DNA of 64,000 nucleotides from Owenia fusiformis (taxonomy: Eukaryota; Annelida; Polychaeta; Sabellida; Oweniidae), in assembly GCA_903813345.2 (NCBI GenBank), contig CAIIXF020000005.1, forward strand, positions 2,170,001-2,234,000, written 5' to 3'. Made by a program: the position numbers and the translations under genes. Positions 4,768-60,336 of the stretch are shown piece by piece (the stretch's first letter is position 1; each line of letters starts with the position of its first letter). Under the pieces are notes generated by a model. It was not told where the DNA came from, searched no databases, and saw only the letters and a program-made list of their open reading frames with translations.

Positions 4768-7700
4768 GGCCAGGTCTTGGTGGCTGGGAGTTGGTGAGGC
4801 ACATACTTACGATCTCACATTGCCTCAGTGCCTCTGAGGTGAAGCCCTCTAAAGCCAGGAGTAAAGCATCTAAGCTTGCGGAGATGAGGTATCTTGCAAA
4901 GGAATTGAAGTATTATCAACTGGACCCGAGGTTTAATGCAGAGAAAATCAGAGATGAGACTATTAGAAGGTTTGGCAGAACAAAACCTGAACTTCCTAGT
5001 AGGCTTGACATCAGAGATACTTTGGGTATACCTACACCTGATGTTGTTACAAGTCCACCCCCAAGATCAACATCTGACCAAGGTCCAAGGAGGCTCTCAC
5101 TGCCACAAGGAGGACGACGTTCCAGCAGCCCTATGGCTAGAAGGCCCCCTAAGTCACCTAACAGGCGTATGACAGTGGGACCCAACCAGGGGCAAATATT
5201 CAATCCTGGGCAGAGGAGAATGTCTAACGCTGAAGCCCAGCAGATGCTGCTGCCACCTGGTGGGCTCCCTAAGAAAGGTGGACTACACGCTAGCAACAGT
5301 ACAAGCTATAGAACAAGTGATGGCTTCAAGAATATTGCATCAAAAGCTATGGCTTTGTCTAAGGTTGCAAATGTTTTCAAGAAGATGCAAGGAGGTGAGA
5401 AATCTATCCTTGGTGTGTCAGTCTCCCAACAGGAGACACGAGAGACATCTCCAAGCCCTTCGTCACCTAGTAGTCCCTCATTGTCTCCTAAATCGCCAAG
5501 ATCTCCACAAAGCCCCAGGAAGAGCTCAATCACAGAGTCCCGAGAAAGTAGAAGCAAACAGAGGGCCAGGACATTGGGCACTGAGCTTTTGCTACTTGGG
5601 GGTGTTAAAAGGCTGGGGGATTCTGGGAGTCCAAGGATGTCTGTGCAGTCTAAGCTGGAGAGGATGTGGGAAATGGGAGAACAAGGTACCATAGGAACAA
5701 AGTAACATCACGTCTAATCACAGAATGAAAACTTTCACAAATTCAGAAAACACCACATACGTATGGCATATTTCAATAGCTGAACAAATCACACAACACA
5801 TGGACTTTTCACTTTAACAATTTCTTTACTCTCATTTGGGGTGCAAACTCCACTGGGAGAAATTTATGTTTTCATTGATCACTTTTCACATATATTATGT
5901 ATTATGTTATATGACCTCATCTAAGTATTTCAGATAGTCATCTTTATCTAACCCTCTTATTCATTTCCTTACATGTATTTTTAATGTAATACTGTATGTA
6001 TCCTTGCTTTTCCTTGTTTTATTACATTTTTGTTATTTTTGTAACCTACAGTAATAGAAAACACGTTAAATACAGTTGTGGCATAATTTTCCGAATTCCA
6101 GGTTTTTCTTTTATCTCTGTTTGATTTATTTCTTTATCATGTTGTTTGTATGATTAAAGCTGTATTTCAGGTAGTTATATATTTCACATTCATGCTGTTT
6201 ATATGTTGATTATACAATGAATGAACAATGAACATTGATGTGACTTTAATAGAGGAGTTGCAATATAGATGGATCTAAAGATGTCATTAGAAAGTTTGGT
6301 CAGGCCAGAATACTTTTTGATTAAATATATGGAGACACCTGACAAAAGTCTCTTGATTTAACATTGACATTTTGATCCTTAAAAGAATAAATTAACTTTC
6401 AAAGATTTTTAACTTTGTATCATTAAATCTCATTAAAATGAAACAATAGCAAAACCTCTATTGTAAAAGACAGCCTTGGTAAAGCATCCAACAATTTTTA
6501 ATATTACAGAGAGTGAGCATGGAAGGTCCATACATGATGAAGAGACCAGGACCAATGGAGGAGACACTATGGAAGCAGATATTGTTGGAGGCAGTTCACG
6601 ATCTGATGATCCCAACCAGGAACAGGTTTGTTTCTAATACACCTTTCACATGAAATGTTTCTCCTATAAAACTGTGAATTAAACCAAGTTCTTTCTTTCA
6701 TGATAGATTATTTAGTATTACGTTTTTAGAGTAATATTATGTGATGTTTTTTTGTATATCAAATGCTAATCTACGACCAATCACAAGTTTGACATCTATT
6801 GACACATAGCCACTTCTCTTGTTATCTGATTTCATTATACAGCTCAATTTAATGTAACGCAACGAATGTTTGCAATTAGTAATGTCATAAATATTTAAAA
6901 AGATACAAATGAGTTACGAATTCGTAAATTTGCGAATGGACCATTTTTGTATGCTTTCGTAAGTCATTCCTAATTGTTTAGTATTTTACATCCAACTTGT
7001 TTGAGTTGTTTTAAAGAATATAAATTGAAACTTCATTTTTTGCAGACTGCTCAGATAAGTGTAGATGAGACTGCTGAATATGATGAAGGTGTTGCATCAG
7101 CTTCCGACCAATCAGGTGATGAATATCAGTCACATGACCATAGAGTATCCAATCAGGTGGCAGAAGAGCCTGGCTTGGAGATTGATGGTACTAGACAACC
7201 CTGGCGTAATAAGATGAAGGATACTGCCAAACTGGGCATGCACTTGTCAAGAGGAAGGCACAGGAAGAAATCAGTTGAGGAGAAAATAGAACAAACAGAA
7301 GTAGATAATAGTCCTCAAACTAATTACGAGGTAAAATAATTTATTCCCACTAATTCATTTCATTGAAAGCTTTTTGAGTGTAAGTGAAAGTTATATATAA
7401 ATATGAATGTGGTTATATTTAAACCTATGTATGAATCAAACCCAAATCTGAAGCAAAAATGCTCAAATTCCATTTTATATGAACTAGTAATTAAATGGAC
7501 AGAACACATAATCCAAGATAACTATTCAGCAAATCCCAATTTATTGGCCTTGTAGGTGGAGATGCAAGATGAGGTCCCGTCCCAGTCCAGACCAGAAAGT
7601 GTGTCTAGCATGGGGTCTGGGAAGAGACGTCGTAGGAAGAAGAGAGAACGAAGAGACAGAGACAATGTGGTAGAAGTGGAAGAGAGTGTAGATCTCACTC

Positions 7701-8572
7701 TGCCTAGTAATGACACACAGGTAATATTAATGACACACATGTAAAATTAATGACACACAGGTAATGTTAATGACACACATGTAAAATTAATGACACACAG
7801 GTAATGTTGATGACACACAGGTAATATCAAAGATTCACAGGTAACATTTTTAATAGTTTTATAGTTTATTTCATAATATAACATATTAGAACATACAAGG
7901 CATTTGCATTAAAACATTGATGGCTAAAATTACTATTGATGAAGTTCACATTTTAACAGGGCATGCTTTCAATGCCCATGGTCAGGGTTTACAGGAGTGG
8001 TTGTTTCGAAGATGTCACATGCCCAGCTATTCTTGTACATGTACTGTGTGGCATTTATAGATCTCTAAATATATTATAACATATCATAATTTATCGAAAA
8101 GAAAAATGTATAGGCGAATAATGTGATTATTTTCTTATATATATATTTCAGACTCCCAGTGATAAACAACCTTTTAGTCCAACATCAGTTGTCAGCACTG
8201 TTCCCCTTATGGCTGCCATGGACCTCAACAATCAGGTAAAAAGTCATTATATTGGTCACAAATGATGAAACACAAGGTCATGCATCTCAAACAAGATATC
8301 CTTGCGATGATATACCTTTTTCAGTTTGCTACCAATTACATTTCCTTCTGTAGTGTAGAAAAATGATATCAAATGTGTGTTTGATTTGACCTTTATTTAA
8401 TGCAGGATGACTTCTTACCTGTTCCCATGGTAACAGTCGATCACCAGGGTCCAGAGAGTGTTCTGGTTAGATGGAAGTTACCACGGCAACCAGAGCCCTC
8501 GTACAGATTATTGGTGTATGTAGTGAATGTGATAGGAATCAAGTTCCAGTCTGAGGTCAACAGTGATATAAG
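4768..8572 (+). CDS. FN3/thioredoxin-fold giant protein, exons 7-12 (disordered linker, start of second FN3)
   Basis: Exons are 4768-5685, 6510-6625, 7046-7330, 7556-7720, 8152-8235 and 8406-8572. Exon 7 (306 codons) is rich in Ser, Pro, Arg and Lys. It begins with a possibly helical stretch (AEMRYLAKELKYY) and carries many SP dipeptides near 5450-5520, which are potential proline-directed kinase or SH3-ligand sites. Exon 9 is acidic then basic. Exon 10 has a strongly basic run (GKRRRRKKRERRDRD) like a nuclear-localisation or microtubule-binding patch. Exon 12 starts the second full FN3 domain (VLVRWKLP). The start of exon 7 at 4768 was chosen because phase 1 fits and a pyrimidine tract precedes it; an acceptor at 4854 would also keep frame. 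The whole linker from exon 4 to exon 11 is about 650 residues with no recognised fold. Confidence 0.75.
7708..7846 (+). repeat. 20-bp tandem array grown from the exon-10 donor
   Basis: The exon 10 end (aatgacacacag, then gtaatatt) is followed by about six further 20-bp units of the form gtaatRttaatgacacacag. Several keep a CAG/GTAAT splice donor and others read CAT/GTAAAA. The unit is not a multiple of three, so use of the next donors would change frame and soon meets a stop near 7742. Confidence 0.85.
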
Positions 8573-8862: not shown

Positions 8863-9294
8863 GATAAGAGGTAGGTATTAATGAACATGTAGAGGAAAGG
8901 TGTTAATGAACATGTAGTGGAAAGGTAACATGTAGAGGAAAGGTATTAATGAACACATAGAGGAAAGGTAACATGTAGAGGAAAGGTATTAATGAACATT
9001 ATTAATTAACATGTAGAGGAAAGGTATTAATGAACGTGTAGAGGAAAGGTATTAATTAACATGTAGAGGAAAGGTAACATGTAGAGGAAAGGTATTAATG
9101 AATATGTAGAGGAAAGGTAACATGTAGAGGAAAGGTAACATGTAGAGGAAAGGTATTAATGAACATGTAGAGGAAAGGTAACATGTAGAGGAAAGGTATT
9201 AATGAACATGTAGAGGAAAGGTATTAATTAACATGTAGAGGAAAGGTATTAATTAACATGTAGAGGAAAGGTATTAATGAACATGTAGAGGAAA
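8863..9294. repeat. Intronic minisatellite (about 18-25 bp unit)
   Basis: Some 20 variant copies of aacatgtagaggaaaggt, with or without attaatg, are joined head to tail, giving 18- and 25-bp subunits in irregular order. The array starts about 290 bp after the exon-12 donor. Each unit has an AAAG/GTAT or AAAG/GTAAC motif resembling a splice donor. Confidence 0.85.
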
Positions 9295-11018: not shown

Positions 11019-14000
11019 CTAATTTATAGGTTTTATAAGGACATCCATTCCCGTTGTCATGCAATAGCTTTTGCTGCATTGTTTATATAACATCTCAGGC
11101 ATGCAGAGTCTCTGTAGGCCTGGGCTAGGTGGAGCCACTGCATCGGCTCTTATATCACACTGGGTACAATCGTTGTACCACCAACCACCTCCTTCTAATT
11201 CATCTGCACAGTTAAGTGTAGCTGACATGTCATTGTCCGAGTCTGTTGTCGTGAACTTCATACCTCTCCAGGCCTGGGCAGGGTCAATCGTAGAAGCGAT
11301 AGCTATGTCAGGATCTGTATCACATGTGTTGCCAAGACAGGTGAAATCAACCATTGATCCGAGTGTCAGTTTGTATTTCTCTGTCTCGTTAGCAACATAT
11401 ATGCTATCATACGTGTAGACATAATCTGTTGCAAAAAGATCATTCTGGGGATTCACAATAATCTTTACCTGATAATCAGTGTGAGACGTTATCTGATGAA
11501 ACACTTCCAAGCCTAAGAATTGTCCAAATTCTGCTGTAAAATATCCGCGTTTGTATCCTTCCCAATCTGTGTATATATCTGGGTCATGTCCCAATTTGGA
11601 CCTCTTTCGGTATATCATTGTCCACTTGTCTGTACAGCGCACCTGTATAGGGGTGGGTACACCAGGAGGATGGGTGAGGTACATACTGTTTGGATCCCCA
11701 AGGATGGTGACCACCTCTTCACAATCTGCAAGAACATATAAGTCATTTATTGACATGTTACTGGTGCATATTTTTGGGGGGAAGAAGCTGCTGATCTGCT
11801 GAGGTTTGCAGTCAATTGGTCGCACATTTTTCAGCCTTAATTTAGGATCAAGTGTCACATTATCATTATCATTATGAGGTTCCATATCCATCCGCCAAAA
11901 GGTATGACCCCTATATAGTCCATTTAAAAACTGTGGTTTTGTTCTAAATAACGCCATAGTTGGCTTCTAGGGTACCTAGTATGCCACTATTTGGTATCAA
12001 AATAAAGAGGAGGAGTTCAACTTTCATTTGAATTACGAAAATAGCGATGTAGGTCAAAATAGTTCCGACGTGAGCATGTTTACTACGCGTTTGGGATTTG
12101 GGCGAGGATTTGAGTAAATGGTAGCAAACGCGAGTTACAATAAATGGACGCTGATATCTCAAAAAGTAACCTGACTCCCTATGATTTGATGTAGATCAAT
12201 CGAACCCCTATATGAACAGGTACATTTTGATATATAACACTATGGGGGGTAAGCGTTTTATATCACGAACGCCATATGTGCAAAGTATTGTTCTGAATTT
12301 TCGAATTTGGCGTTGGATTACGGTACTCATACCATGAATAAACATTTATCCCTTTTACATGAAATCACTAACTCCTATAGAACTTATGAAAACAATCATG
12401 TCCTGGTTATTGTTGCGTATATATTTGCGTGTGATTTCTGTCAAGTTTCATTGTAAATAAAAAATATTTGACGTCTCCAGTAATAGATGTAGTCTCCACA
12501 TTGAGCTTAAAAAATAATGAAATTGATTCCCCAATCAATAGAGCCATTGGTATCATTCAGAACATGAAAAGCGTTTACTTTATTTCATGATCAAAGAATT
12601 GTTCAGTTTCTGGATTTCGTTAAGTTTTTGAGTGAATGCAATTCAACATTTGAACAAAAACATTTAACAGTATGACATAATTGCTAAAGAAAAATTGGAA
12701 ATGATTTTTGAAGTAGCAACTAAATGCGACATGAGAAGGTTCTATTCAAAATGGAACATTGAGCAATGATGACAATTTAAATCACGCATGTTACAATTAG
12801 TGGTGCAAATATGAGAGAAAACTATTATTATGCCATAAAAGCATGTTTTCCCTGGGAAAATAACAGGGAATAAAATTGGTATTCAAAAAATCCTGTATCA
12901 GCCAAAATCCCGTATTGGATCCCATATCAGAACTATTCCCAGTAATTTCTAATTTCTGAAAATATTATATGATAAATTGTATCATTTTATGTCACAATCA
13001 TTGGGTGATGTCATACAAAAATTAAAAATAAATAAGTTTTAGAAAATCTATATAGAATAAATAGGTTATTGATGGTCGTGATGCAATATGAATTTTTTCC
13101 TTGACAAAATATGATATTGGCCTTGGAAAATATCATATTGACACGTGGGCTATCACCCTCGCCCCCTTTTCCCTCTGAATAAAATTCATATTCCATCCAT
13201 TCCATTAAATAACCTCTATATATATAATGAATCTTGTGAAAAGCAGAACCTGAAATCAACAAATATCATTAGATTCTTTAAATTTAAAAATGAATAAAAA
13301 TGAAATTGGCTTGGGTTATTATCAAATAATAACCCAAGCACTAAAATTATATATAACTTTCATATTTTTATTTGCTATTTTCATGGCTGCAAAATATTCA
13401 TTACATTAATAAGTTTCCATATTTATTGCTCACATGGGATCGATCATTCAACTCTACAACTATATCATTCACCATTGGATACAAGGCACATAGAACAACA
13501 TCACTCAAACAAGTCCATCAATTGAACAATATAAAACCTTTCAGTTCTGAGGTTGATGATTTGTATCACAAAAGAGATGTTAATTTGAACTGAAGAAGTA
13601 AATTGATTTTTAGCTGAAATGGTGAATATGTTAGTTTAGATTTTTCTTAAAACATATGGGAGCACAGAATTCATAAATATGTAAATTCTACAAGAAGTTT
13701 TGTTTTGCTCTAAGGGGTATGAATAACTAGCATTATTTACAATATCACTCCAGCATTGTATACAATATCTTTCTACTTTTGTACCAGTATTATATAAAAC
13801 ATCAATCCTATATTTACCAGTATTGTATACAATACCACTTTTATTCCTAGCCATAACTTTGTATACAATACCATTCTTGATTGCACGAGTATTGTATACA
13901 ATATCTCACTTATTCATAATAATATAACTCTTCTTTCTAGCTTGCAGCAGTATATACAACATCACTTTAATTTACTTCACTTTAGATTTCTGTATAATCA

Positions 14001-15426
14001 AATTACCTTTCACAATGTGTTGACACTCATCACCATAGTAACCTGCAACACAGTGACATTTTCCCGGACTCTTGGTTGCTCCATTCTGGCAGTTTAGATC
14101 TAAATGAGAAGTAATCAAAATATATGGCAATCGAGAAAATCAAAAATGGTTATAGAACACAGCATAAAATGAAACATCTAAGAGATTTGAGACAATGAAA
14201 ACAAACCCAACTATCCCAAATCATATTCCATCGTGAAAAGAAAAAGTATTTTATACCTTCTCTCTTAACCATTCATTTATGAAATATAAATATGATTATA
14301 TAGCAATGTGACGAAGTTGAAAATGAGATATCCCATGTTATTTTCCAATAGGGAAAACTCCATGCTGTCTATTGTTTTCAGGCTTATTTTGGTCACCAAT
14401 ATTGGATATCTTAATAATTTGGATTGCTATACAATTGTCCCTCTCAGTGGAGAATGAGAAGAATGAGATCTTTGTACAATGAGGAAAAAGTTTTGAAAAA
14501 CGTAGGCTGCTAATCCATTATCTATTGGTATTATCCAAATGACATTGCTATTATTTTTCTGTGCTTAAGTTGAGGATAACATATTGTACAAATCTAAAAT
14601 GAGAAATGTGTGGTCTAACGATAATCCCAGTCAAAAATAAAACTGTCTGAGGGAACTAATGAATAATATGAATCTGACTTTGTCCAATATTCACTATTCT
14701 TTGTTGTTCAACTTTGTGCAGATCAGTTCTCTTTAATATCCAATAATAATACAGAAATCAGGGGCGTAGTCAGCAATTGTCAAGGAGGGGGGGTGCAATT
14801 TTTGGGTTTGCATAAATGCGAGTGAAGGGAGCCCAAAAAAGGGTACAGGGGTTCACCACTGGAAATTTTTTAAAATTTACATTGTACCATATATGGTGTA
14901 TTCTAAGCATTTCAAACTATAATTTGTTAATGTTTTTTCAACAAATTTTTCAAAATTGCTTATTTTCTTTATTGTGGGGGTTGGGGAGAGGTGCGACCTG
15001 GTTAGGCCTTTGGAAATTGAACTGCCAAAGTTTTATTTACAAGCACTAGTTTTGAATGTCAACTAAAAAACAGTCGCAAGAATATTGGCTTCAACAGTAT
15101 GTCACATCTTCCGCAGTATTGTCTTTAAACTTACATTTTGTGAAGTGGTCGACTCCTGGTGTGTTGAGATTAGGTTCACTTGAGAGTGAAGCTCCATTTA
15201 TCTCACACATCACATTGCCATTGCTGAAGTACTTTACGTTATAACTCTTGCATCCACCATCAGCCGAAACACAATCCAAGCTGCACTGGCTGGCATACTT
15301 CCTCTCTATTGCTCTCACTGTATTATTTCTGGAAGCGCCAGATATTTTCTCAAACAGTTGATGGCACTCAAAAATATGTATAAAAACTCCAGGAATTAAT
15401 ATCAAGCGAAAAAGTTCAAAAAACAT
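11019..15426 (-). CDS. Secreted PAN/apple-EGF-fibrinogen-like protein, copy A
   Basis: Three exons are read on the - strand: 15426-15135 (start and PAN/apple), 14099-14007 (EGF-like) and 11725-11019 (fibrinogen C-terminal domain and stop). Phases are 1,1,0 and the total is 1092 nt (363 residues). The N-terminus MFFELFRLILIPGVFI is a signal-peptide-like hydrophobic stretch. Next comes a Cys pattern CHQLF...CSLDC...CKSYN...MCEING typical of PAN/apple folds. The EGF exon has six cysteines, ending in CHCVAGYYGDEC. The FReD starts at DCEEV and includes WTMIY, DWEGY, the calcium-site-like DSDNDMS and GGWWYNDC. FReD proteins commonly act as lectins or immune recognition molecules in invertebrates; that role is inferred. 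The gene lies antisense inside a + strand FN3-gene intron. Confidence 0.88.
12100..13700. other. Intron 2 of FReD copy A, no gene recognised
   Basis: AT-rich sequence with no coding signature. A stretch near 12400-12620 resembles 17270-17460 in the other FReD copy, so the tandem duplication included intron DNA. A perfect 13-bp-arm hairpin lies at 13309-13339. Confidence 0.6.
13732..13910. repeat. Degenerate tandem repeat around the palindrome gtattgtatacaatac
   Basis: Four to five spaced copies of the self-complementary 16-mer or close variants (for example at 13821, 13859 and 13890) occur at roughly 35-50 bp intervals between the last two exons of FReD copy A. No function is evident. Confidence 0.7.
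14160..14260. repeat. Weak copy of the dispersed repeat family
   Basis: The segment with aacaaacccaactatcccaa followed by a gtgaaaaga motif matches the core of the family at 42130-42370, with poor ends. Confidence 0.45.
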
Positions 15427-15714
15427 TCTCTTCGCTGGATTGCTATGTTAGTTAATGTGATTTCGAGCATTTGGATTCCTGATAGAAAAGTCATTATTAA
15501 TTGATAAACTCATCAAATCTACCATTACAGTGATCACGCAGAGTGCATGGAAACTCCATTATTTTCTAATTACAGCTTTTTAGAAGTGAGCTCCCAGGTT
15601 GATGTGATGTTAATGGCATATTAAGTGTGTATTTGCTAGCAGTGTTGTTTATTGCATGTATATGATATATACTTTTGTGATGCATCAACTGAGCATGTTC
15701 TAAATGTCTAAGCA

Positions 15715-15900
15715 CATGTGCCAAAGGGAAAGGGCCAACAGTTGTAATGGTAACCCAGCATGAAAAATAAAACATCTAACTGTAGACCAGTCATAAGGAA
15801 AATAAACCCCAGCTATCTCAAACCATAATCCAACATGAAAGAACAGTATGTCACATCCCCCCCCCCCTTTTACCATCCAAGTCCCATTATCAGCTTTTTG
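15715..15900 (+). repeat. Copy of the dispersed repeat family
   Basis: It starts gtgccaaagggaaagg, passes through ccagtcataaggaaaataaa and ends after a C-run. It matches the copies at 21545, 37325 and 42130 in order and spacing. Family type unknown. Confidence 0.65.
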
Positions 15901-16281
15901 TAAAAACATTGAAAGTTTGGTCTTACATTAGTCCTCACTGTTAGTATCTGCTTACCAACAAGGGTAACAATAGCAATATCATTGTTCAATGTGTTCTTAT
16001 CAAAACTTTCATGAATGGTTACACTCTTAATTGTTCGCGATTAAACCAATCTTATCAACATTAGGGAATGAACTCTGTTCAAATAAAATGATTATTGGAT
16101 GGGTAATCATTTTTTCAACTGAAGATGCTGTCTCTGTGGATATAACAAAAAACACACTAAATCACATTACATATCAGTTGAGAAAAATTAACTGTTTCAA
16201 TATTAATTTTGTGACATCATGAATAAAAGTTTTTACAGCTATACGTGTAATACATATTTTTTTTAATTCTTGAGGTCACAT

Positions 16282-16287
16282 TTTATT
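16282..16287 (-). promoter_or_regulatory. Candidate poly(A) signal of FReD copy B
   Basis: AATAAA on the - strand lies 68 nt past the stop at 16355. Confidence 0.4.
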
Positions 16288-16354
16288 GTTTCCTGTAAAC
16301 AGGTACATTTCCTCTATACATGTATGTTTCCTTTATAGAGGCATTTTTTTTCTT

Positions 16355-19204
16355 CTAATGAATAGGTTTAATAAGGATCATCATTCCTGTTGTCATACAA
16401 TAGCTGTAACTGCATTGTTTATATAACATCTCAGGCATACAGAGTCTTTCTAGGCCTGGGCTAGGTGGTACCACTGATGTGGCTGTTATACCACACTGGG
16501 TACAATCATTGTACCACCAACCACCTCCTTCTAATTCATCTGCACAGTTTAGTGTAGCTGACATGTCATTGTCCGAATCTGTTGTTGTGAACTTCATCCC
16601 TCTCCAGGCCTGGGCAGGGTCAATCGTAGAAGCAATAGCTATATCAGGATCTGTATCACATGTGTTGCCAAGACAGGTGAAATCAACCATTGATCCGAGT
16701 GTCAGTTTGTATTTCTCTGTCTCGTTAGCAACATATATGCTATCATATGTGTAGACATAATCTGTCCCAAATAGATCATTCTGGGGATTCACTTTGAGTT
16801 TTACTTGATAATTGGAGTTAGATGTTATCAGATGAAGCATGTCCAAGCCCAAGAATTGTCCAAATTCTGCTGTAAAATATCCAAATTTGTATCCTTCCCA
16901 ATCTGTGTATATATCCGGGTCATATCCAGTCTGAGACCTCTTTTGGTAGATCATTGTCCACTTGTCTGTACAGCGCACCTCTATAGGGGAGGGTACACCA
17001 GGAGGATGGGTGAGGTACATCCTGTTTGAACCCCCAAGGATGGTGACCACCTCTTCACAATCTGTAAAAGATCACATGTACCAAGTGCAATTTATTGAGG
17101 TTAAAAGCAGTGGCTGCCTGTGCTCAAAGTAATCATTTTGATGATTATATACCAAACTGCAATGGTAGTAGAGTGATTTTGATAGATATGTAAAGCTAAA
17201 AGAATAAATTTGCTGGTACCAATGATTGTTCGCAAAAATGAATTATTAACTGTACAGTCAGAAAATCAAAAAGAAATTAAAAACCTGGACTGAATCTGAT
17301 CGTGTAAGGAATTGTGTATGGTTTAAAATTGTTTGGCATGATTCTTGTCAGGTTTCAGTGTGAATGGTATATACACAATGAGGGAGGAAGTAAGGAAACT
17401 GATCCCCCAATCAATAGAGCCTTCGGAAAGTTGATAATTTTATTTCATGATTAAGAATGGTTAAGTTACCACATGAACTTATAAATATTTTGTCCATTTT
17501 TACTGGCTTGATTTTCCTTGATATCAATTATTCTTTATTCATGTTATTATGGGTATGTTATCTGATAGAACCAGATTCATTTTCTGGTTGTCTGAAAATG
17601 TTTGATGTAAGAATAATTTTATTAAAGGGAGAATCATATCTACATCCTTCAACACACCGTCAGATTTCACCATTGAACCGATCAGTGCATGATTGATTCT
17701 CCCAAATCGTCGATCGATGCACAGAATTGGATGCGCCGATGCACCGGTCGATGCACCCAAGTTCTGCGCTGTGATGCACCTTAGTGTGAATTGGTGAAGG
17801 AAAAAACTAGGAAAAATCTTTAAATCCTTCAAAATGATAAATCCAATTCATAGAAAAACAATTGTATTATCGGAAAAATCTTTAGTTTTTCTGAAATAAA
17901 GCACTTTTGGGACATGACAAGGAAGCATATGAGCCAAAAATAGTCTAAAATTGAATCAATTTTGTTTAGCTAGTTGCTAGATTTGACTCTCCCTTTAAGA
18001 GGCACTAGACCAATAACTGGGTAGATTTGGCAACCCTGAGAATGTTTACTATTGTCCAACCTAACAGATTTTCATTATTTAATTACACAGATTGAAATGA
18101 GATATGACCTGATCATGATGCTCCCAAGATACCAAAACCCAATCCCTCATAGATGTAGCTGAATTTTATACGTTGACACATCGTCAAAATGACTGTTTGA
18201 TGACAAGTTATATTTTTCTTGAAATTGCATGTCTCAATGATACATCAAGACCTAAAACAAGAGTGTTAACTGTTATTTGTATCAAAAGATTGCCCATTTG
18301 TGTGTCATTTGAATGTTGTTCATCAATGTAGATTAATAGATTGAATATGGTTGTCAACATTTAAAATCATATAATTCAAGATTTGTGTATATTAAATTAC
18401 CTTTTACAATGTGTTGACACTCATCACCATAGTAACCCACCACACAGTGACATTTTCCTGGACTCTTAGTGGCTCCATTCTGGCAGTTAAGATCTAAATG
18501 AGATGTAATAAAATATATGAGTGAATCTGCACTGTCTCAGATTCTGTTGTGTCCCATTTCAGTCTAAGGGAACCTATGCATAATTTGAAACATTGACTTT
18601 GTCCAATATTCTTTTTTGCTCAACTTTGTTTCGATCAATACCCTTTAATGTACAACAATTGTACAGAATTTGATACAGCAGAAAATGCAAAAAGCCATTA
18701 ACATGACAGAATGTCACGAAATGGTTATGGTTTATTGACAAACAAAAATGATGAATTTCAATTAAAAAATGTCAGGCGCAAGAATATTGGCTTAAGCAGT
18801 ATGTCACATCTTTGTGGTGACATAAAAATCAAATCCTTTAATATTTTAAAACAGTTAGGTACACTGAAATCTGAAGCTTTATTATACCATCATGGGTCTT
18901 TAAACTTACATTTTGTGAAGTGGTCGACTCCTGGTGTGTTGAGATTAGGTTCACTAGAGAGTGAAGCTCCATTTATCTCACACATCACATTGCCATTATT
19001 GAAGTACTTGACGTTATAACTCTTGCATCCACCATTAGCCAGAACACAATCCAAGCTGCACTGGCTGGCATACTTCCTCTCTATTGCTCTCACTGTATTA
19101 TTTCTAGAAGCGCCAGATATTTTCTCAAACAGTTGATGGCACTCAAAAACTTGTATAAAAACTCCAGGAATTAATATCAAATTTACAAGTTCAAAAAACA
19201 TCAT
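16355..19204 (-). CDS. Secreted PAN/apple-EGF-fibrinogen-like protein, copy B
   Basis: Exons are 19204-18910, 18493-18401 and 17061-16355, 1095 nt in all (364 residues), with the same phases as copy A. The start was placed at the Met-Met before FFELVNLILIPGVFI, which gives a signal peptide; an upstream in-frame Met at 19330 would bury it. The PAN, EGF and FReD parts are nearly identical to copy A. Differences cluster in the FReD segment around the DWEGY region (RSQTGYDP versus RSKLGHDP, and LHLITSNSN versus FHQITSHTD) and near the C-terminus. The exon layout, matching exon lengths (93 and 707 nt) and shared intron fragments show a tandem duplication. A TTAA-flanked MITE sits in the second intron. 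Confidence 0.88.
17626..17994. mobile_element. MITE with TTAA target duplication (piggyBac-type)
   Basis: AGGGAGAATCA at the left is mirrored by TGACTCTCCCT at the right, with TTAA on both outer sides (17622-17625 and 17995-17998). The 369-bp interior is non-coding and contains several gatgcacc/cgatgca motifs. The TTAA duplication is the piggyBac hallmark, but the inverted repeats are short, so the assignment is tentative. Confidence 0.55.
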
Positions 19205-19973
19205 CTCCGGATTGTGATGTTGGTTAATGAGATCTGAAGCAGTTTCATAAATGATTGTCTCGCTTATAGAAAAATCATTATTTATTGAAGAACTCATCAA
19301 TTCTTTCCATGGAGAAATAGACCCGAACAAATGCCAATTGCATTTCCATTATATCATCAATGCTTTTTAGTTTAAAGTTGATGAAAGTTCTATTGGAATA
19401 TTGAATATCACTTATGGTTCAAGCGTAGAAACTTGTTAAGTTGCCAATAATATAATAAATATTTATTATTTCATTCTGTAGGTCACATTTTGTTGTTTTT
19501 TGATGGAGGCACCGGAAATTGAAATAAAAATCAATCAGCAGCAGTCAATACTGTATCAATAACATGACATATATATATGTGGGTACATATTTAATGATTT
19601 TTCACTTGGCACCTTTGTTTTTCAATTGTAACCTTCAAGGGGGATCTTGGCAATGGCATCGGTGAATTGATGTTTTATAGATAATGGAATAGACATTTTG
19701 CTGATGGATGTTTACCTTTCGATAGTTTAATTGACCTTGAGACTTTTTGTTTGTTTCACATCATTCACATTATTTGAGACTGAATACTCTTGTGTAAAGA
19801 GTAATATATACACCTAATTTTGATGTCAAGTTTATTTTTTTTCAAATTGAATTTATTCTTCATCTTGAATTGTGCCAGTATGAATGACATATCCCATGTT
19901 CTTATGGTGTTGGATTGTGATACGTATGATAAATGCATTTTGAGACAATATGGTTATTGTTATTGTGTTTCAG

Positions 19974-22183
19974 CTTTGAGTGCCTACAGGAGGAGAATGG
20001 GGAGAGTATAGCTGCTGTGCAACATTGCTGGAACCTCACTGACTCCACTAGATGCTTGGTAGAGGGGCTCAGTCCAAGTACACTTTACAGGTCAGTCATG
20101 CTTGGTAGAGGGCTCAGTCCAAGTACACTTTACAGGTCAGTCATGCTTGGTAGAGGGCTCAGTCCAAGTACACTTTACAGGTCAGTCATGCTTGGTAGAG
20201 GGGCTCAGTCCAAGTACACTTTACAGGCCATTCATACTTGGTAGAGGGGCTCAGTCCAAATAACATTTACAGGTCAGTCATGCTTGGTAGAGGGGCTCAG
20301 TCCAAGTACACTTTACAGGTCAGTCATGCTTGGTAGAGGGGCTCAGTCCAAGTACACTTTACAGGTCAGTCATGCTTGGTAGAGGGGTTCAGTCCAAGTA
20401 CACTTTACAGGTCAGTCATGCTTGGTAGAGGGCTCAGTCCAAGTACACTTTACAGGTCAGTCATGGTTGGTAGAGGGGCTCAGTCCAAGTACACTTTACA
20501 GATCAGTCATGCTTGGTAGAGGGCTCAGTCCAAGTACACTTTACAGGTCAGTCATGCTTGGTAGAGGGGCTCAGTCCAAGTACACTTTACAGGTTAGTCA
20601 TGCTTGGTAGAGGGGCTCAGTCCAAGTACACTTTACAGGTCAGTCATGCTTGGTAGAGGGGCTCAGTCCAAGTACACTTTACAGGTCAGTCATGCTTGGT
20701 AGAGGGGTTCAGTCCAAGTACCCTTTACAGGTCAGTCATGCTTGGTAGAGGGGCTCAGTCCAAGTACACTTTACAGGCCATTCATACTTGGTAGAGGGGC
20801 TCAGTCCAAATAACATTTACAGGTTAGTCATGCTTAGTAGAGGGGCTCAGTCCAAATAATCTTTGCAGGTCAGTCATGGTTGGTAGTAAGGGTTAGTCCA
20901 AGTACACTTTACGGGTCAGTCATGCTTGGTAGAGGGGCTCAGTCCAAATAACCTTTGCAGGTCAGTCATGGTTGGTAGAAAGGGTCAGTCCAAGTACACT
21001 TTACAGGTCAGTCATGCTTGGTAGAGGTACATTTTACAGGTCAGTCATGCTTGGTAGAGGGGCTCAGTCTAAGTACACTTTACAGGTCAGTCATGCTTGG
21101 TAGAGGAGCTCAGTCCAAGTATACTTTACAGATCAGTCATGCTTGGTAGAGGGGCTCAGTCCAAGTACACTTTACAGGTCAGTCATGCTTGGTAGAGGGG
21201 CTCAGTCCAAGTACACTTTACAGATCAGTCATGCTTGGTAGAGGGGCTCAGTCCAAGTACACTATACAGTTCAGTCATGCTTGGTAGAGGGCTCAGTCCA
21301 AGTATACTTTACGGTTCAGTCATGTTTGGTAGAGGGGCCTAGTCCAAATACACTTTACAGAATTACAATTGATCACAATCAATTTTGTTTCTATTTTGTT
21401 TCTGTCACTGGAGTAAGACCATATTGAGATGCATTGGGTTTGATTTCCCTTTGACTGGTTTGGCTTTTAGCTGATATTTCGTTTGACAGTGCTTTGTTGA
21501 AATAGCACTTGATCTTTTCTCTTTTGGCACTTGTGATAAATATCTAATTACTGGTGCGAAAGGGAAAGGACCAAAAGTTGTAGCCCAGCATGAAAAAGCA
21601 AACTTTAACTATATACCAGTCACAAGAAAAACAAACCCCAGATATCCCAAAACAATGATCTAATGTGAAAAGAAGCAATGTCTTTGACCCCCTTTCTCCC
21701 ACATAACATATTTCAATAAGATATGTATTTTTAGGATATTTGTTGTTGCCAACTACAGTGTAATCCATGCTGGTCAGCCCTGTGAGATCCAGGCCACCTC
21801 CACTGTGATACACTACACCTCTCTAGGAGCACCTCAACCCCCCACTCTCTCAGTAACTAGTCTACAGCTTAGACAGGTATATTTATGTTAACATCTTATT
21901 CGAATTCAATTACGTATGTAAAATATCATCCTTTAAATCATCGTTAGTGACTCTGAGACATGACAGGTTCTATTAACTTCATATACCCAAGCAGTTTCTG
22001 ATTTTGAATCTATTATTGATTTACCTTGTGTGTTTACCTTGCAGGTTACATTAAGCTGGGAGGCTGGAGAATGCCACAGGGATGTGGAGATATCTGGCTA
22101 CAAAGTCTATGTTGACAACAAACTGTTGGGTGACAAACTCAGTGCTAAAACTACTCAAACAACAATTGATAACATTCAGCCTG
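19974..22183 (+). CDS. FN3/thioredoxin-fold giant protein, exons 13-15
   Basis: Exons are 19974-20090, 21735-21876 and 22045-22183. Exon 12 ends in phase 2 at 8572, and exon 13 resumes in phase 2 after an 11.4-kb intron. Exon 13 finishes with the FN3 signature L-S-P-S-T-L-Y, continued by FVVANYS in exon 14, so the second FN3 is split over exons 12-14. The third FN3 runs over exons 14-16 (PPTLSV, then VTLSWEAG, ISGYKVYVDN, and TIDNIQPG). The donor of exon 13 is embedded in a long minisatellite, with the alternative donors described separately. Two minus-strand FReD genes sit in the intron before exon 13, and a serine protease lies in the intron after exon 15. Confidence 0.82.
20053..21360 (+). 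repeat. 45/46-bp minisatellite grown from the exon-13 donor, about 29 units
   Basis: The unit is the last 36-37 bp of exon 13 (from gcttggtagag to actttacag) plus the first bases of its intron (gtcagtcat). Unit 1 is the genuine exon end with its donor after 20090. Units 2 and 3 are exactly 45 bp, so their donors (after 20135 and 20180) stay in phase 2. Most later units are 46 bp because of an extra G. Nearly every unit retains CAG/GTCAGT, with a few reading CAG/GCCATT or CAG/ATCAGT. One unit near 21014 is shortened. Confidence 0.95.
21545..21720 (+). repeat. Copy of the dispersed repeat family
   Basis: From gaaagggaaaggaccaaaag to ctttgaccccctttctccc. It ends about 15 bp before the exon-14 acceptor, so it supplies part of the sequence upstream of that exon. 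Confidence 0.7.
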
Positions 22184-22257
22184 GTAGGTGGTTTCTGATA
22201 TTAAGAAATCTATATAGGGATTTTATCAATTTATTATTGGATCTGAAACAAAGGAGC

Positions 22258-22773
22258 ACGTAAGGTATCGCAACAGATTCCAGACAGTCATATGTTGGAT
22301 ATTGGGTAGTTTCCGGAAATGTTGTCCTGATTTTCAGTCTTATTAAAGCAAAATAGGATTCATGCAGGGCTTTTAAAGATATCAATTATGGGTGACAAAA
22401 ATGAAAACAATGGATTGCATGAGTTTTCCCTATTGGAAAACAACATGGGAAATATTGTTTTTCAATTTATCCCAAATGAATCCATTTTCCTTTTAAGAGG
22501 TTAACTATGTCTCAAAACGCAACATATAGATGCATCAAACATTGAAAAAACAGGGGTGGAAAGGGTCGAAAATCAGGACAACATTTCAGTAAAAAACGTG
22601 CTGGTGGGGTGTTTGCACCTTTCTTGTCTCAAAGTCCAAATTATTTTATCACCTCTATTAATGCTTGTCCTGGAGTTAAAGCATTAGCCTAACATATGCA
22701 CCTGTTCAAATCCTCATAAAATAGCAAAAAATCCAACATATGACTGTCTGAAATCTGTGGCAATACCTTACGT
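22258..22773. mobile_element. MITE with ~75-bp inverted repeats in intron 15
   Basis: The left arm starts acgtaaggtatcgcaacaga and the right arm ends with its imperfect reverse complement. Further matching blocks (ccagacagtcatatgttgga; aaatgttgtcctgattttc) extend the pairing inward. It is 516 bp and non-coding. Superfamily not determined. Confidence 0.6.
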
Positions 22774-34000: not shown

Positions 34001-37000
34001 AGATAAGACTAAGATCATTTTAGCAAGGGTTTGAAAATGGATAAATAGAGAATTTGTATAAAGTGTACAGGTATTGATCATGTAAATTTTAACGTATAAT
34101 GTATCTTTGAAACACATGTAGAATTTTCTGATCAGTAAAAATATTTCTGTCAAGTATACTGATATAATTTTGTATGGAACTTAAGGTAATGTGTTAAATC
34201 TTCATTTTTTATAAAAAGCAGTTAACAAACAACATTACAAAGAGACTCATTGTGTACTTATCCCGAATCAAACATTTTGAATGCTCTTTGGTTTGTTTTT
34301 GCTTGAACGTATTTGAATTCTGAATAGGTTTCTGTCACACATTGAATACAGGGTATATAGTTTAAGTCAAATCATTTACAACGAAATAATATTTTTATAT
34401 TTATTCATCATCATATGTGTATCATATCATTTTGTTTATAGCAACAAGTGTACTATAGCTAAAGAAAAATCACATTTCTTAGTTCTTGATAGTTATTAAT
34501 AATACTGGTATAGTAGGTTATACAGTTTATATTTTATTTTTGATTTATAGGGGCAAAGTTTTCAATTCATTTTAAGTTATTCACGTTCAGTAATATGGAA
34601 AACTTGGTAAATAAAAATCGTTGGTTTATACATAGTTCTATACAGTGTATGACTCCTCATGTGTTTTACTATTTTAGAATTGTGTTATATTTAACAGGGG
34701 AAAAAGTGAAGCCTCACTATGTACTCCCAGATAGTTACCAAGTGACCTGGTGGCCAGGAGATATTTTAAAATTGTGTTATATTTAACAGGGGAAAAAGTG
34801 AAGCCTCACTATGTACTCCCAGATAGTTACCAAGTGACATGGTGGCCAGGAGATAAACCTGAAGAGAACATCAACAGTCAGGCATCTAGAGGTAAGATCA
34901 CAAGTATTATTTTGGAAAACCTTAACACTTAATTATCTCCATTTTTGGAATATTCATACCTTATGATTTGATCACAAGTCATTGCTCATCCAAAAGTAGA
35001 CGATGGTTTTTCTCAGAATTGTACAGTCATACCAAAACGAAGCTCTATATAGTAGGAACTAAATGAATGTTCTGGTGATGCTTGTGAAACCTATACATAC
35101 TCAGTGATAAAGTTTGAATTTAAAATCAGAATATTGGCAAATTTGAGGCACATGTGTTTTGCAGATGACCACCTGAACATTGAAGGCCTAGATGCCAACA
35201 CCACCTACACTGTAATTGTTGAAGCAAGGAAATTACAGTCCTATACACAGACACAAGAAGGTAGGGAACTTATATAACCCACCCTGCTTTAGTTAAATTA
35301 AGAATATACACTTGTTAAGCTTAGAATTAACACATTTAATATTTATTTCCTTTAAGCTTATTACATTTTCAGTATTGATACTATGTGTATTATGAATCTT
35401 TTAGAGCAGTTTAAGATTCAATTTTATATAAAATTAATTGTATAAAATGAAAACATTAATATGTGTTAACAGTATGTAAGATAGATATGTACTGAAGCAC
35501 TTAATCATTATAATGATGTTAAAACTAATTAAGTTTATAAGTGTAATTTGAATTACTAATCAAGCTTTGATTAAGATCTACTAACCTTCATGTTTTCGGT
35601 GCAGATCTAGAGAGTGATGAAATTCGACACAGTTTTATCCTGACTAGTAAATCTGAGCATATAAAATTGACAACAGCGCAACCTCCGGATCCACCAACAA
35701 ATCTTGGTATTTTATCGTCGACTTGTAACAGCATCAGTGTCGCATGGGATCCTCCTAGAGAACATGGTGTTGAAGTAATTGGTGAGTTAGAGATAAAATG
35801 TATTGTGACAGAACTCATAACTTTCAATACTTCATGTGCAGTCTTTCATGTTTAATTGTATATTAAATACTTCTCAATCCACTGAACAGTCCATCTTGCT
35901 GTTATAGGCAGTTTTTCGGTACAGATCTGGAGAGTGATGAAATTTGGCACAGTTTTATCCTGACTCGTAAATCTGAGCATATAAAATTGACAAATCCGAT
36001 ATTTATTTTCTGAATTAGTCTTGATTGTTTTTTTATGTATACTTTTTCTTTGCAGGTATCCGTGTAGATTGTGTTCCACTTCGTGCCCATAGCAACCAGC
36101 ACCGATGTCTAGAGTTAATGCCTGACAGCACATGTGCAGTCTTGGAGAATCTCCTCGAGAGCACTGAATATCACATCACAGTTACTGCACTTACTGAGGA
36201 GTTCTTTGATCAACTTCCTGCTAAAGACAAAACTAAGAAATCACGAACATTACCAAAGGATATAATAGTTCAGAAAGCAAGCCCATGGTTACCAAGTTCT
36301 AGTATAATCAGTATGACATCAGGAACTAAACCTCCCTGTGATGTCACAGTGGTGGACACAGGGATGGACTGGGTGTCGATACGCTGGCTACCTGCACAAG
36401 TTAATGGCACCAACTGGATGCAAGGAACTATAGTACGCTGGGCAGAGGTGAAGCCAAAAAGTCAGAAAAATGAAACCACACTAGCTAATCATGCAGAGTT
36501 AATGCCAGGAGATACAACATTGAAAATCCAGGATCTTCAGCCTGGTGTGCAATATAAGATTGTAGTGGAGGCTGTTGTTAGTGTTAAAACTACTATTAAA
36601 CCTGGTGAAGGCCCAGACACAGTCAGTGATAAGACTAGGGAGGGTGCTAACAGGAGAACTGCTCATGTTATGTCCTCAGCTGTATATGTAAGGACTAAAG
36701 CCCCTAGTGAACCCCCTGTTGTGTTAGTAACTGGTTTCACTAATGACTCCATACACCTCTACTGGGAGAAACCCTCTATGTTTACAATACTCCACAAAGA
36801 AGGTGATGAAACACCTCAGTATATACGGAGGTGTCTGGAAGGTTATAAACTAGAGATTAATGGTAAGCTTCATATGAAGCTTGGGTCAGCTGCTCAGAGT
36901 TGCACATTGACAAAATGTAGAGCAGGCAGGACATATAATATTGTGTTAATTGCTCTTACATGTACTGAAGATGTGAAGAAAGAGCGGAGGGCTAAGAAGA

Positions 37001-37129
37001 AAGCGCTGCTGGAGAGTAGTAGCTCTCTGGGGAGTATGTCCGGTGGATACAACAGCCCAGATCTTGATGAGGAGAATGATGAGTCAAGATCTGAAACTGT
37101 TTGGGTTGTTCTACCAAGAACTCAGGAAG
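31062..37129 (+). CDS. FN3/thioredoxin-fold giant protein, exons 16-24 (FN3 domains 3-9)
   Basis: Exons are 31062-31275, 31586-31706, 31905-32096, 32375-32624, 32993-33139, 34790-34891, 35165-35260, 35605-35781 and 36056-37129. All phases agree. FN3 domains are recognisable by the early Trp (IIAWEKP, DVTWQSP, VVWNKG, SVAWDPP, SIRWLPA, HLYWEKP) and the late L-x-P-G-x-x-Y or similar motif (DLTPGQSYDI, GLDANTTYTV, DLQPGVQYKI, CRAGRTYNI). Exon 24 is unusually long (1074 nt). It holds the end of one FN3, two complete FN3s, and a Ser/Asp/Glu-rich low-complexity stretch near 36990-37110. Exon 21 uses the second of two nearly identical acceptors, because the first leads to an early stop. Exon 23 has a partial copy in its downstream intron. 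Confidence 0.85.
32625..34670. other. Introns 19 and 20 of the FN3 gene
   Basis: Outside exon 20 (32993-33139) this is AT-rich intron sequence with no mobile element, RNA gene or reverse-strand gene that I recognise. Confidence 0.5.
34671..34854 (+). repeat. 92-bp direct duplication across the exon-21 acceptor
   Basis: Copies at 34671-34762 and 34763-34854 differ at only two positions. Each contains the acceptor tatttaacag and the first 65 bases of exon 21. Splicing to the first acceptor reads through the junction of the copies into a stop (ending GDILKLCYI), so only the second gives a full protein. Confidence 0.95.
35912..35993 (+). repeat. Intronic copy of the exon-23 acceptor and exon start
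   Basis: This repeats 35593-35673 with about six differences, including the acceptor (cggtacag versus cggtgcag) and the first 23 codons. No matching donor follows. It lies just upstream of exon 24. Confidence 0.9.
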
Positions 37130-54239: not shown

Positions 54240-55010
54240 AACACTTTCATCAATTTCTAATTTTTTCTTCAACATGTATTGTAATGACTTCAGTATGAAT
54301 GAAATGTCCATTTGTGTTCTGGTCTTGATTGTGATATCGATTCTTGAATGGTGGGGAAGGGGGTATTAGACATTGTTTCTTTTCACGTTAGATCATGGTT
54401 TTGGGATATATGGGGTTTGTGTTTCTTGACTGGAATGCACTTTTGCTAAAGCCCGGTATACACCAATGGGGCAAGTTGGGACCTCCATAGACTTAACATT
54501 GCGTGGGACCTCGTGGGACCTTTTGGGATTTTGCCCCATGAAGTCCGTGGGACTCCATGGGACTTCGTGGGATTTTGCCCCATATTGCCCCATCGAGTCC
54601 CACGAGGTCCCAGGAGGTCCCATGAAGTCCCACGTGGGACTCGGTGGGACTCGATGGGGCAAAATCCCACGGAGTCCCATGGAGTCCCATCGAGAATGAA
54701 CATGTTCATTCTTTCCATGGGGCATCGTGGGATTTTCGGTCATATGACGTGTTGTGCGAAGCCCGACATACACCAATGGGGCACGGTGGGATTTGATGGG
54801 ACTCCATGGGGCTTGATGGGACTCCATGGGGCACGATGGGGCAAAGTCATCAAGGTCCAATGGGACTTCGTGGGATTCGATGGGGCAAATTGGGATTCGA
54901 TGGGGCAAGATGGGACTCGATGGGGCAAGTGGGATTTTGCCCCATTGGTGTATACCGGGCTTAAGTTCCATTACAACTTTTGATCATTTCCCTTTGGTAC
55001 TCGTGCTTAG
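54240..55010 (-). repeat. Dispersed repeat copy split by a MITE
   Basis: The left part (54255-54446) and right part (54965-55010) together match the 42130 family in reverse. The break coincides exactly with the edges of the Harbinger-like element, so the dispersed repeat is older than that insertion. Confidence 0.75.
54450..54961. mobile_element. PIF/Harbinger-like MITE filled with a GGGAC/ATGGGGC repeat
   Basis: The ends AGCCCGGTATACACCAATG and its exact reverse complement are flanked by TAA on both sides (54447-54449 and 54962-54964). A 3-bp TWA duplication is the PIF/Harbinger hallmark. The interior is a dense imperfect repeat of gtgggactccatggggc-type units. It reads in one sense in the left part, partly in the other near 54595-54690, and again from 54775. 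A second internal copy of the terminal sequence lies at 54757-54778, suggesting a composite. Open frames through it on both strands are low-complexity by-products, not genes. Confidence 0.8.
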
Positions 55011-58200: not shown

Positions 58201-60336
58201 TCTCTGACCAATGCTGCTGAATACAATACTTTTGTCTTCTATCAATACCCCACAACCGTCCCCTGATGTCCCGCCTTGTATCATATCCCAGTTATCCATT
58301 CCAGACCCTGCCTCCTCCTTCATATACGTCTGTAATGTAAATAAAACGTTCCCCAGGAGCTCCAAATACGACCACGACCCAATTCTATACAACGCACTAT
58401 GACATGCTATTTCTGTCTTATAATTGATATTGCAGGATGTCAAATGTTGTTTTTTTTCTGCCAGGGTATAAACACTACCTCACTTATATCATTACCTGAG
58501 ATGTTTCCGCGTATTGACACACTTCTCCAGAATATCCCCTCCTGCATTTACAGTCTGGAAAGTCACAGCGTCCATTCCCACTGCACATGTCCTTGCATCC
58601 TGGTCCAATATAGACGTCATCGATGGCCCAATGTTGACCGCCATTAGAGTGCTGGTTGTTCTCATCTACTTGTCTCCAACGGAACCTCGTGGATCTGTAA
58701 AATGCAAATATGAATGGATTGACATCTGTTGATGCTGCAGATACACTAAACCAACAATTGGACATGATACAACTATGGTATGGTCAAGTATTGTATAATT
58801 ATGTATGTATTGTACGAGTATTGTGAAGAAAGTGATTCTTATTAAAACACATACAATGATATTTCATTCCCGTGTAATGGTATGGTATACGTTCTCCACC
58901 CTGTCTGAGCGTAGTATACACTTGGCATCGGAACGTCTCCATTACATTGAGGGAATGACGGGAAACATTCCGTCACAAGATAGTGCCATGTCACGCCATT
59001 ATCAGTTGAGAATTCTAATCGAACAGGTGATATATAGGCATCCCAAGATGCATTGCATCCCACACTGATACTGAATTGCACGATGTAGTCGCTACGCACA
59101 GCGACATCTATTGTCTCAGCAGTTGAGTTCTCATTGGGCTGATATTGCCCAACTAGGGCAGTTTTCGAGTTGCAGTACTCGGCGATGTGGGTATTGTCTG
59201 TGCTTATCCATTTTGCATTGCTAATACCATTGTTAAAGTTATCTTTAAGTATGTTAGTGTTAGTATCTGTTCCACCGATTACAATGTTGTCGATTGCCCA
59301 GTCATCCTTGAGATATCCTGAATGTACAGGCTGCCATAGTCGAATGCGTGTACCGTTGTGTTTGGCAAGTTTTGGAATAGCAATTGTAACAAAACTGAAA
59401 TAAAAATTGAACAACGTAAATAGACAATTCATGTTGTTTTGTGTACTGTAGAGAACTAAAAATGTAGAAAAACTATTGATTGTAAAGGCTATGATTTCAT
59501 TAAGAACAAAACATTGTCAAAGAAAATACCTTGCTTTGTAGAACATATCGTAGAATAACTCTGTGAGTTTGAACCACCTGTTCCCTCCATTGGTAGAATA
59601 ATCAACAAGGATTCCATTGTCTCTGTTTCTAGGCTTTGCAAGACAACCGAACTTAGCGTATAATTGTATGTACACCGCAGAAGAAAGGTCCAAATCTCTG
59701 GTGATTGCATGCCTACTACAACCCTGAAAGTATAAGCAAGGGTATATGCCACATAATTTCTGTATTATAATGATGAATGGAGATGGGTATAAGGAAAGAT
59801 TGCAAAGACGAGTTTTACATAACATACCCCATAAAAGTGAAGTGAATGACCAGAGACTATTACTCCACATTTGACGCTAGGGTATCCTCCCGCCACACTT
59901 TGCCACTTGTCATATGATACTTTCTCACCAAATGCGTCATTCAGTTGTTGAGGAAGTTGTTCTTTTGGTAATTCACACGAATCTCCATACCAACCCTCAT
60001 CACAGCTAAAACACAATTATAGCTGTACTAATAACTTCTAGATATCCTTAATTTTGTTCATAAATTGCAAAACACCATGTTTTAAACTTAATGTAGAGCT
60101 GATGACACATATTGGAAAACACGCAACAGAGAATAATTAGAGTCAGTACGAGCTCTGTCAAATGGTATCAAATTTTGCATATCTACAATATATACCTGCA
60201 TTGTCCACGTGCACATCTGCCGTGTCCACTACACGTACATGGACACTCATCACCAATGTATATATTGTCAATTGCCCAGGAATCCTCAGCATCGAATCCC
60301 ATTGGCTGACGCCACCTGAATCTCGTCGCTTTTGAC
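55231..60336 (-). CDS. RELN: Reelin, last 13 exons (end of repeat 6, repeats 7 and 8, C-terminus)
   Basis: Exons from 5' to 3': 60336-60196, 60005-59828, 59723-59530, 59394-58855, 58694-58496, 58329-58163, 57906-57800, 57706-57321, 57135-56891, 56735-56581, 56354-56138, 55971-55860 and 55548-55231. Phases agree throughout, giving about 985 residues. Reelin repeats are plain: RFRW-x-Q and W-A-I/L-D-x-(I/V)-(Y/V)-I-G segments, EGF modules (CSGHGRC, CSGNGRC, CSGRGDC), and strands such as [14 protein letters not shown] and LLQYSINGG. The segment [18 protein letters not shown] and the final [10 protein letters not shown] with [10 protein letters not shown] match the vertebrate repeat 8 as I remember it. 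Reelin is a secreted matrix signal for neuron positioning, acting through lipoprotein receptors in vertebrates; its role here is inferred. Upstream exons lie outside the window. The tail after the last repeat lacks the basic stretch known from vertebrates. Confidence 0.93.

Follow-up and report, generated by a model that had tools for sequence, protein, structure and literature searches.

Amphioxus "mirages" are the closest described systems to the array reported here. They are minisatellite-like tandem duplications of 5' or 3' exon-intron boundaries that carry AG/GT in many of their units, and they are known in Adh3, the globins BflGb6 and BflGb9, TnC, and PGBD5 (PMC3087553, PMC3902484). According to these accounts, the units of the Adh3 mirage measure 10-72 bp, mirage copy number differs between haplotypes, and regular splicing is reported to be undisturbed, the units being regarded as sequences that could serve as cryptic splice sites. 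The cases described in these two sources are all cephalochordate. Among the matches listed in a literature search that left subscription literature mostly uncovered, the term occurs in these two papers on lancelets, with one further occurrence in PMC4540964.

Related arrangements are described in other settings. Human segmentally duplicated genes contain internal tandem repeats at exon-intron boundaries, and differences in their copy number are associated with novel introns and with alternative transcripts (PMC2812944). Tandem duplication has also been invoked for intron gain, as in the AGGT model of Rogers and the case of a potato RdRp gene (PMC4974935). A VNTR lies near extra donors in pri-miR-137 (PMC6692358), and minisatellites occur in the introns of earthworm metallothionein genes (PMC12783039).

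Here we describe a minisatellite at the end of a fibronectin type III (FN3) exon in the annelid Owenia fusiformis. The window analysed is a stretch of 64,000 nucleotides (assembly GCA_903813345.2, contig CAIIXF020000005.1, positions 2,170,001 to 2,234,000 of the forward strand), and positions below refer to it unless stated otherwise. As far as the published descriptions cited above go, the array resembles amphioxus mirages in that the repeat spans an exon-intron boundary and has AG/GT in many units; it differs in having 29 units of mostly 46 bp and, unlike the amphioxus mirages, in being known from the genomic sequence of one assembly alone. With the human boundary repeats it has in common that it is a minisatellite at an exon-intron boundary, and with Rogers-type intron gain that splice signals are multiplied when a splice boundary is tandemly duplicated, although the array lengthens an existing intron whereas the Rogers model makes a new one. 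GC content is 35% across the 200 kb surrounding the window and ranges over 33.5-39% among five other samples of 10 kb, and C1-C6 are 31.9-62.2 Mb long. A search for hemerythrin was negative, which is uninformative here, and one for COX1 likewise gave no match. Amphioxus has about 41% GC and 19-20 smaller chromosomes. On these general traits of GC and chromosomes the host does not appear to resemble amphioxus, which would extend the range of mirages.

A Minisatellite across an FN3 Exon End

Splitting the array at the unit start gave 29 tandem units on the + strand across 20052-21360, and TRF returned 46-bp rows at 20052-21027 and 21027-21360 with 91-92% matches. Both results agree with the sequence-only reading, which had proposed about 29 tandem units composed of an exon end and its 5' splice site. 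Unit length is 46 bp in 22 cases, 45 bp in five (units 2, 3, 9, 11, and 28), and 33 bp in one, and the last unit has 39 bp. With 1.3 kb at approximately 90% identity, the array is far beyond chance. A further TRF row of 138 bp covers the whole of 20052-21360 with 90% matches; its period equals three 46-bp units, and a higher-order repeat was rejected, the unit labels giving only short echoes such as those of units 4-5 and 16-17. The locus is single, all eight matches in a search of the 498-Mb assembly (525 contigs) falling inside the array. Features of the array and its surroundings are collected in table 1.

Table 1. Positions of the array, its flanking exons, and two likely sister arrays in the window (slashes mark splice junctions here and in the text)
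Feature	Position	Strand	Remarks
FN3 coding exon, 3' end = repeat unit 1	19974..20090	+	In phase with exons 8406-8572 and 21735-21876, giving an FN3 domain when spliced (Pfam fn3, 25.6 bits; cut-off 25)
Unit 1, 39 exonic and 7 intronic bases	20052..20097	+	Donor CAG/GTCAGT after 20090
Units 2 and 3, 45 bp each	20098..20187	+	In-frame open donors after 20135 and 20180
Units 4-29	20188..21360	+	18 more GT donors; use of any of them would run into one shared premature stop
Next coding exon, completes FN3 F strand (IFVVANYS)	21735..21876	+	Start placed by homology
Donor-anchored array, 20-bp unit TAATGACACACAG/GTAATAT, 7 copies	7708..7848	+	First unit ends exon 7556-7720 at CAG/GTAATA
Acceptor-anchored 92-bp tandem duplication including exon start	34670..34855	+	Downstream copy taken as start of exon 34783-34891, hand-set

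The units differ in their degree of conservation. The sequence of unit 1, which is coding, recurs identically in units 6, 7, 13, 14, and 25, and mismatches to the consensus (gaps not counted) average 0.67 in units 1-15 versus 2.64 in units 16-29. This pattern would fit growth and homogenisation of the array close to the exon and decay of its distal copies. No Rfam match at or above the gathering threshold was found in 19500-22300, and two two-unit folds were ordinary (z of -1.41 and -0.71); the array was accordingly rejected as an RNA element. With 21 GT donor sites within 1.3 kb, the array might bind U1 snRNP without splicing, and so protect the transcript or titrate U1, but so abundant an snRNP would hardly be titrated by one locus and we regard this role as extremely unlikely.

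The exon model behind these assignments is home-made and crude. A first version placed exons in repeats and was discarded as a model; a second, trained on 15 first-version exons of which none lay in an array, gave 47 candidates. These were reduced to 40 by dropping two end exons together with five candidates from the interval 11-18 kb, where genes lie on the opposite strand; two starts were set by hand. The 40 predicted exons begin 2.7 kb ahead of the window, end at 45.75 kb, and are assumed to form one gene, in which the exon carrying the array, numbered 13 in the sequence-only reading, is, in this rough model, the 16th; its start was shifted from 19990 to 19974 after the boundary placement test reported below. 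FN3 domains are also found in a large exon at 36056-37129 (57.6 bits).

Joining the donor of unit 1 (donor 1; donors are numbered by unit) to position 21735 in silico gives a native FN3 F strand, STLYR/IFVVAN. Dscam chains align across this junction (whole-sequence E of 3e-6, single stretches being weak), so the exon end falls inside the F strand, just past the conserved tyrosine. The strand is named after the usual FN3 fold. The acceptor at 21735 has the lowest crude score of the 40 modelled, and the exon program picked 21759 instead.

Other coding material lies within and beyond the gene. The 11.4-kb intron ahead of the array's exon contains nested coding pieces on the minus strand (11019-19348), including a Fibrinogen_C match at 16355-17071 (83 bits) of which 11019-11966 is, by eye, a near copy. 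A putative Reelin-type gene occupies 55-60 kb on the minus strand, with a Reelin_subrepeat-B match at 58842-59516 (92 bits), and a G+C-rich family of 10-bp repeats (ATGGGGCTCG-like) at 54430-54980 is open in several frames on both strands.

We consider it likely that the array is a mirage, that is, an intronic minisatellite derived from duplication across the FN3 exon end and its 5' splice site, of which the first donor is used. The unit spans the exon-intron boundary and many units keep AG/GT; the native boundary lies at the array edge and the native protein is restored, these last two features being observed in silico only. Under this proposal, a 46-bp piece spanning the exon end and donor would have been tandemly duplicated, with new copies added on the intron side and the original donor remaining beside the exon. 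Splicing from the 5'-most donor would link the native codons with the next exon and remove the remaining array as intron, while slippage or unequal exchange would let the array grow and turn over. With the first donor still in place and in use, these events would be nearly neutral and expose little to selection.

Predicted Coding Consequences of the Duplicated Donors

The repeat multiplies a complete donor, as the sequence-only reading had noted, but not in every unit as it had supposed: GT is kept in 21 of the 29 units. The others have GC (units 4 and 16), AT (10, 24, and 26), TT (27 and 28), or, in the truncated unit 29, AA, and five of the last six units lack GT if this truncated final unit is counted, donor loss being more frequent among distal units. 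Seventeen of the 20 extra GT donors share the 9-mer of donor 1, and these are thus not degraded decoys. The commonest site, CAG/GTCAGT, ranks eighth among the 40 modelled donors according to a textbook weight matrix.

Most units end in TTTACAG/GTCAGT, placing an acceptor-like AG directly before the donor, and AG is kept in register in 27 of 29 units. This layout raises the prospect of a self-correcting ratchet, in which a transcript spliced from a far donor would undergo a second splice between donor 1 and the AG belonging to that unit, so that exactly the native junction is regained. Crude acceptor scores of the units (0.5-2.3, mostly 1.5) do overlap those of the 40 modelled acceptors (-0.7 to 4.5). 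However, the pyrimidine stretch is short and weak, duplication of an AG/GT boundary yields the same layout by default, and a single unit is too short for the usual animal intron. We judge such resplicing to be very unlikely.

Open products arise only from donors 1, 2, and 3, with 0, 15, and 30 additional residues, respectively. The 45-bp length proposed for units 2 and 3 holds, as does the prediction that their donors would add exactly 15 and 30 codons with no stop. Unit 4 has no GT, and each of the 18 GT donors after unit 3 leads to one and the same premature stop inside the array. Later units had been expected to shift the frame, but the donors of units 6, 11, 14, 17, and 20 stand at distances from donor 1 that are divisible by three and are in register, being blocked by the stop instead. 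Since every later GT donor meets this stop, the length of the array past its third unit cannot determine protein length in frame, which contradicts the suggestion that allele length tunes the protein; copy-number changes matter to the protein only if units 2-4 are affected. The same stop argues against a coding array, in which several units would be exonic and the true donor would lie further downstream. Units 2 and 3 are indeed open, but donor 1 alone leads to a standard FN3 F strand, and we find this arrangement highly unlikely.

A narrower form of protein-length variation is unlikely. Donors 1-3 would all be used as a switch, adding 0, 15, or 30 residues to the FN3 domain, probably by lengthening the loop that precedes the F strand, and the set of proteins would change with alleles that alter units 2-4. 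Consistent with this, the three donors share one 9-mer and each yields an open product. Units 1-3 each end in LSPSTLYR, so the +15 and +30 forms rebuild LSPSTLYR/IFVV at the new junction, and Pfam fn3 scores stay level at 25.6, 24.9, and 26.1 bits for the +0, +15, and +30 forms, with the +15 form just missing the curated cut-off of 25. These scores do not prove that the fold survives because the matched stretch in the longer forms (9-95, versus 9-101 in the +0 form) ends in the first copy; an extended loop ahead of the F strand is conceivable. Against a switch, just 2 of the 20 extra GT donors qualify, the adjacent 45-bp units 2 and 3 could result from one duplication of a neighbour, and with 45 bp in 5 of the 28 downstream units the chance for unit 2 alone is about 18%. 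Selection for in-frame units 2 and 3 was rejected, being not significant if both represent a single duplication event. The amphioxus precedents also argue against it, as they are described without aberrant mRNA (PMC3902484).

Under the mirage interpretation, we infer that donor 1 is the main site and that donors 2 and 3 are used rarely if at all. Products of later donors would probably be removed by nonsense-mediated decay, and the array presumably varies in length. Where 5' splice sites are duplicated, the intron-proximal site can win. For this reason, and because most of the extra donors equal donor 1, leakage to them may be real.

Likely Recurrence at Other Splice Junctions

Further boundaries in the gene model also carry likely sister arrays. 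In total, 4 of the 10 TRF arrays in the modelled gene straddle an exon boundary against 0.53 expected (P=0.001), two of these boundaries, at 34783 and at the exon that precedes the window, being called from the crude model and by eye; without the array reported here the result is 3 of 9 versus 0.47 (P=0.008). An array was scored as straddling if the boundary was crossed by at most one period, and random placements could either leave exons untouched or overlap one at a single end by between 3 bp and one period.

Two of the sister arrays are anchored at donors. In the 20-bp array at 7708-7848, the donor register reads CAG/GT in five of seven copies and CAT/GT in two. The other array consists of 19.5 copies of a 24-bp unit with the donor ATCAATATCATCAAG/GTATGAAAT, lies 2.6 kb before the window (C5:2167417-2167890; L015 7417-7890), and closes a modelled exon of the same chain with its first unit at AAG/GTATGA. 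The 92-bp duplication at 34670-34855 is the mirror image of these donor arrays. The remaining 6 of the 10 arrays are purely intronic, including a donor-like one at 8873-9294, a complex 18/25-bp array (AAAG/GTATTAATG) situated 300 bp into an intron, off the boundary.

Nine donor-like arrays that lie beside or away from the one reported here, and whose edges were judged by eye, comprise three at an apparent boundary and six with no visible exon. The three are the 24-bp array before the window and two others. At L014 3132-3193, a 30-bp repeat of 2.1 copies begins at the apparent donor CAG/GTAAGA of a short open exon. At L016 6853-6925, on the minus strand, a 20-bp array of approximately 3.7 copies ends at an apparent acceptor, AATAG/GTAACATG; the exon there reads as reelin-like by eye, and this may be a boundary array in another gene.

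Donor-like sequences also tend to be enriched in arrays. In a 314-kb sample containing 70 arrays, the best donor score ranked within the top quartile of its matched controls for 30 arrays (P=0.0008), within the top tenth for 13 (P=0.02), and within the top twentieth for 6 (P=0.14). Across the genome, where arrays were counted by motif alone and irrespective of exon position, the donor motif MAGGTRAG and its mirrored control GARTGGAM have similar numbers of single occurrences (61,712 versus 59,138), whereas windows with triples number 999 for MAGGTRAG, 291 for GARTGGAM, and 269 for a second control, MAGTGRAG. Singles of the latter, counted in the sample only, numbered 52 versus 42 for MAGGTRAG. 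Since triple windows overlap inside arrays, loci were counted by hand. Among the matches listed, there were 7 donor loci in C1:0-22.4 Mb, 18 mirrored loci in 185 Mb, and 26 MAGTGRAG loci, of which the 21 on C1-C6 (248 Mb) were used for the rate. The corresponding rate ratios of donor arrays, among these matches, are 3.2 relative to the mirrored motif (P=0.014) and 3.7 relative to MAGTGRAG (P=0.007). Confined to the same 22.4 Mb, the contrast is weak, with 7 loci for the donor motif, 3 for the mirrored motif, and 1 for MAGTGRAG (P=0.17 and 0.035). Per Mb, arrays of the donor motif thus outnumber those of the equally abundant mirrored motif about threefold; with the stricter motif CAGGTAAGT there is little excess, triples occupying 73 windows versus 56 for its mirrored control.

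The placement test and the motif counts suggest, but do not settle, that splice boundaries are favoured for the birth of repeats beyond what tolerance allows. A broader proposal is that splice boundaries, donors above all, act as birthplaces of minisatellites in this genome, so that boundary arrays would form a recurrent genome-wide class outside lancelets, would be linked to a process at splice junctions, and would continually make spare in-frame donors. We hold this to be possible but doubtful. An example of such a process would be transcription-coupled breaks or R-loops at 5' splice sites, which might give rise to arrays there beyond chance and tolerance.

Significance

Boundary minisatellites are natural experiments on how the spliceosome selects one donor from several identical ones, and they form a stage in one of the models of intron gain. 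The gene described here offers 21 nearly identical donors, three of them compatible with the coding sequence, together with three likely sister cases. If the class proves to be common outside lancelets, splice junctions would be a general source of tandem repeats.
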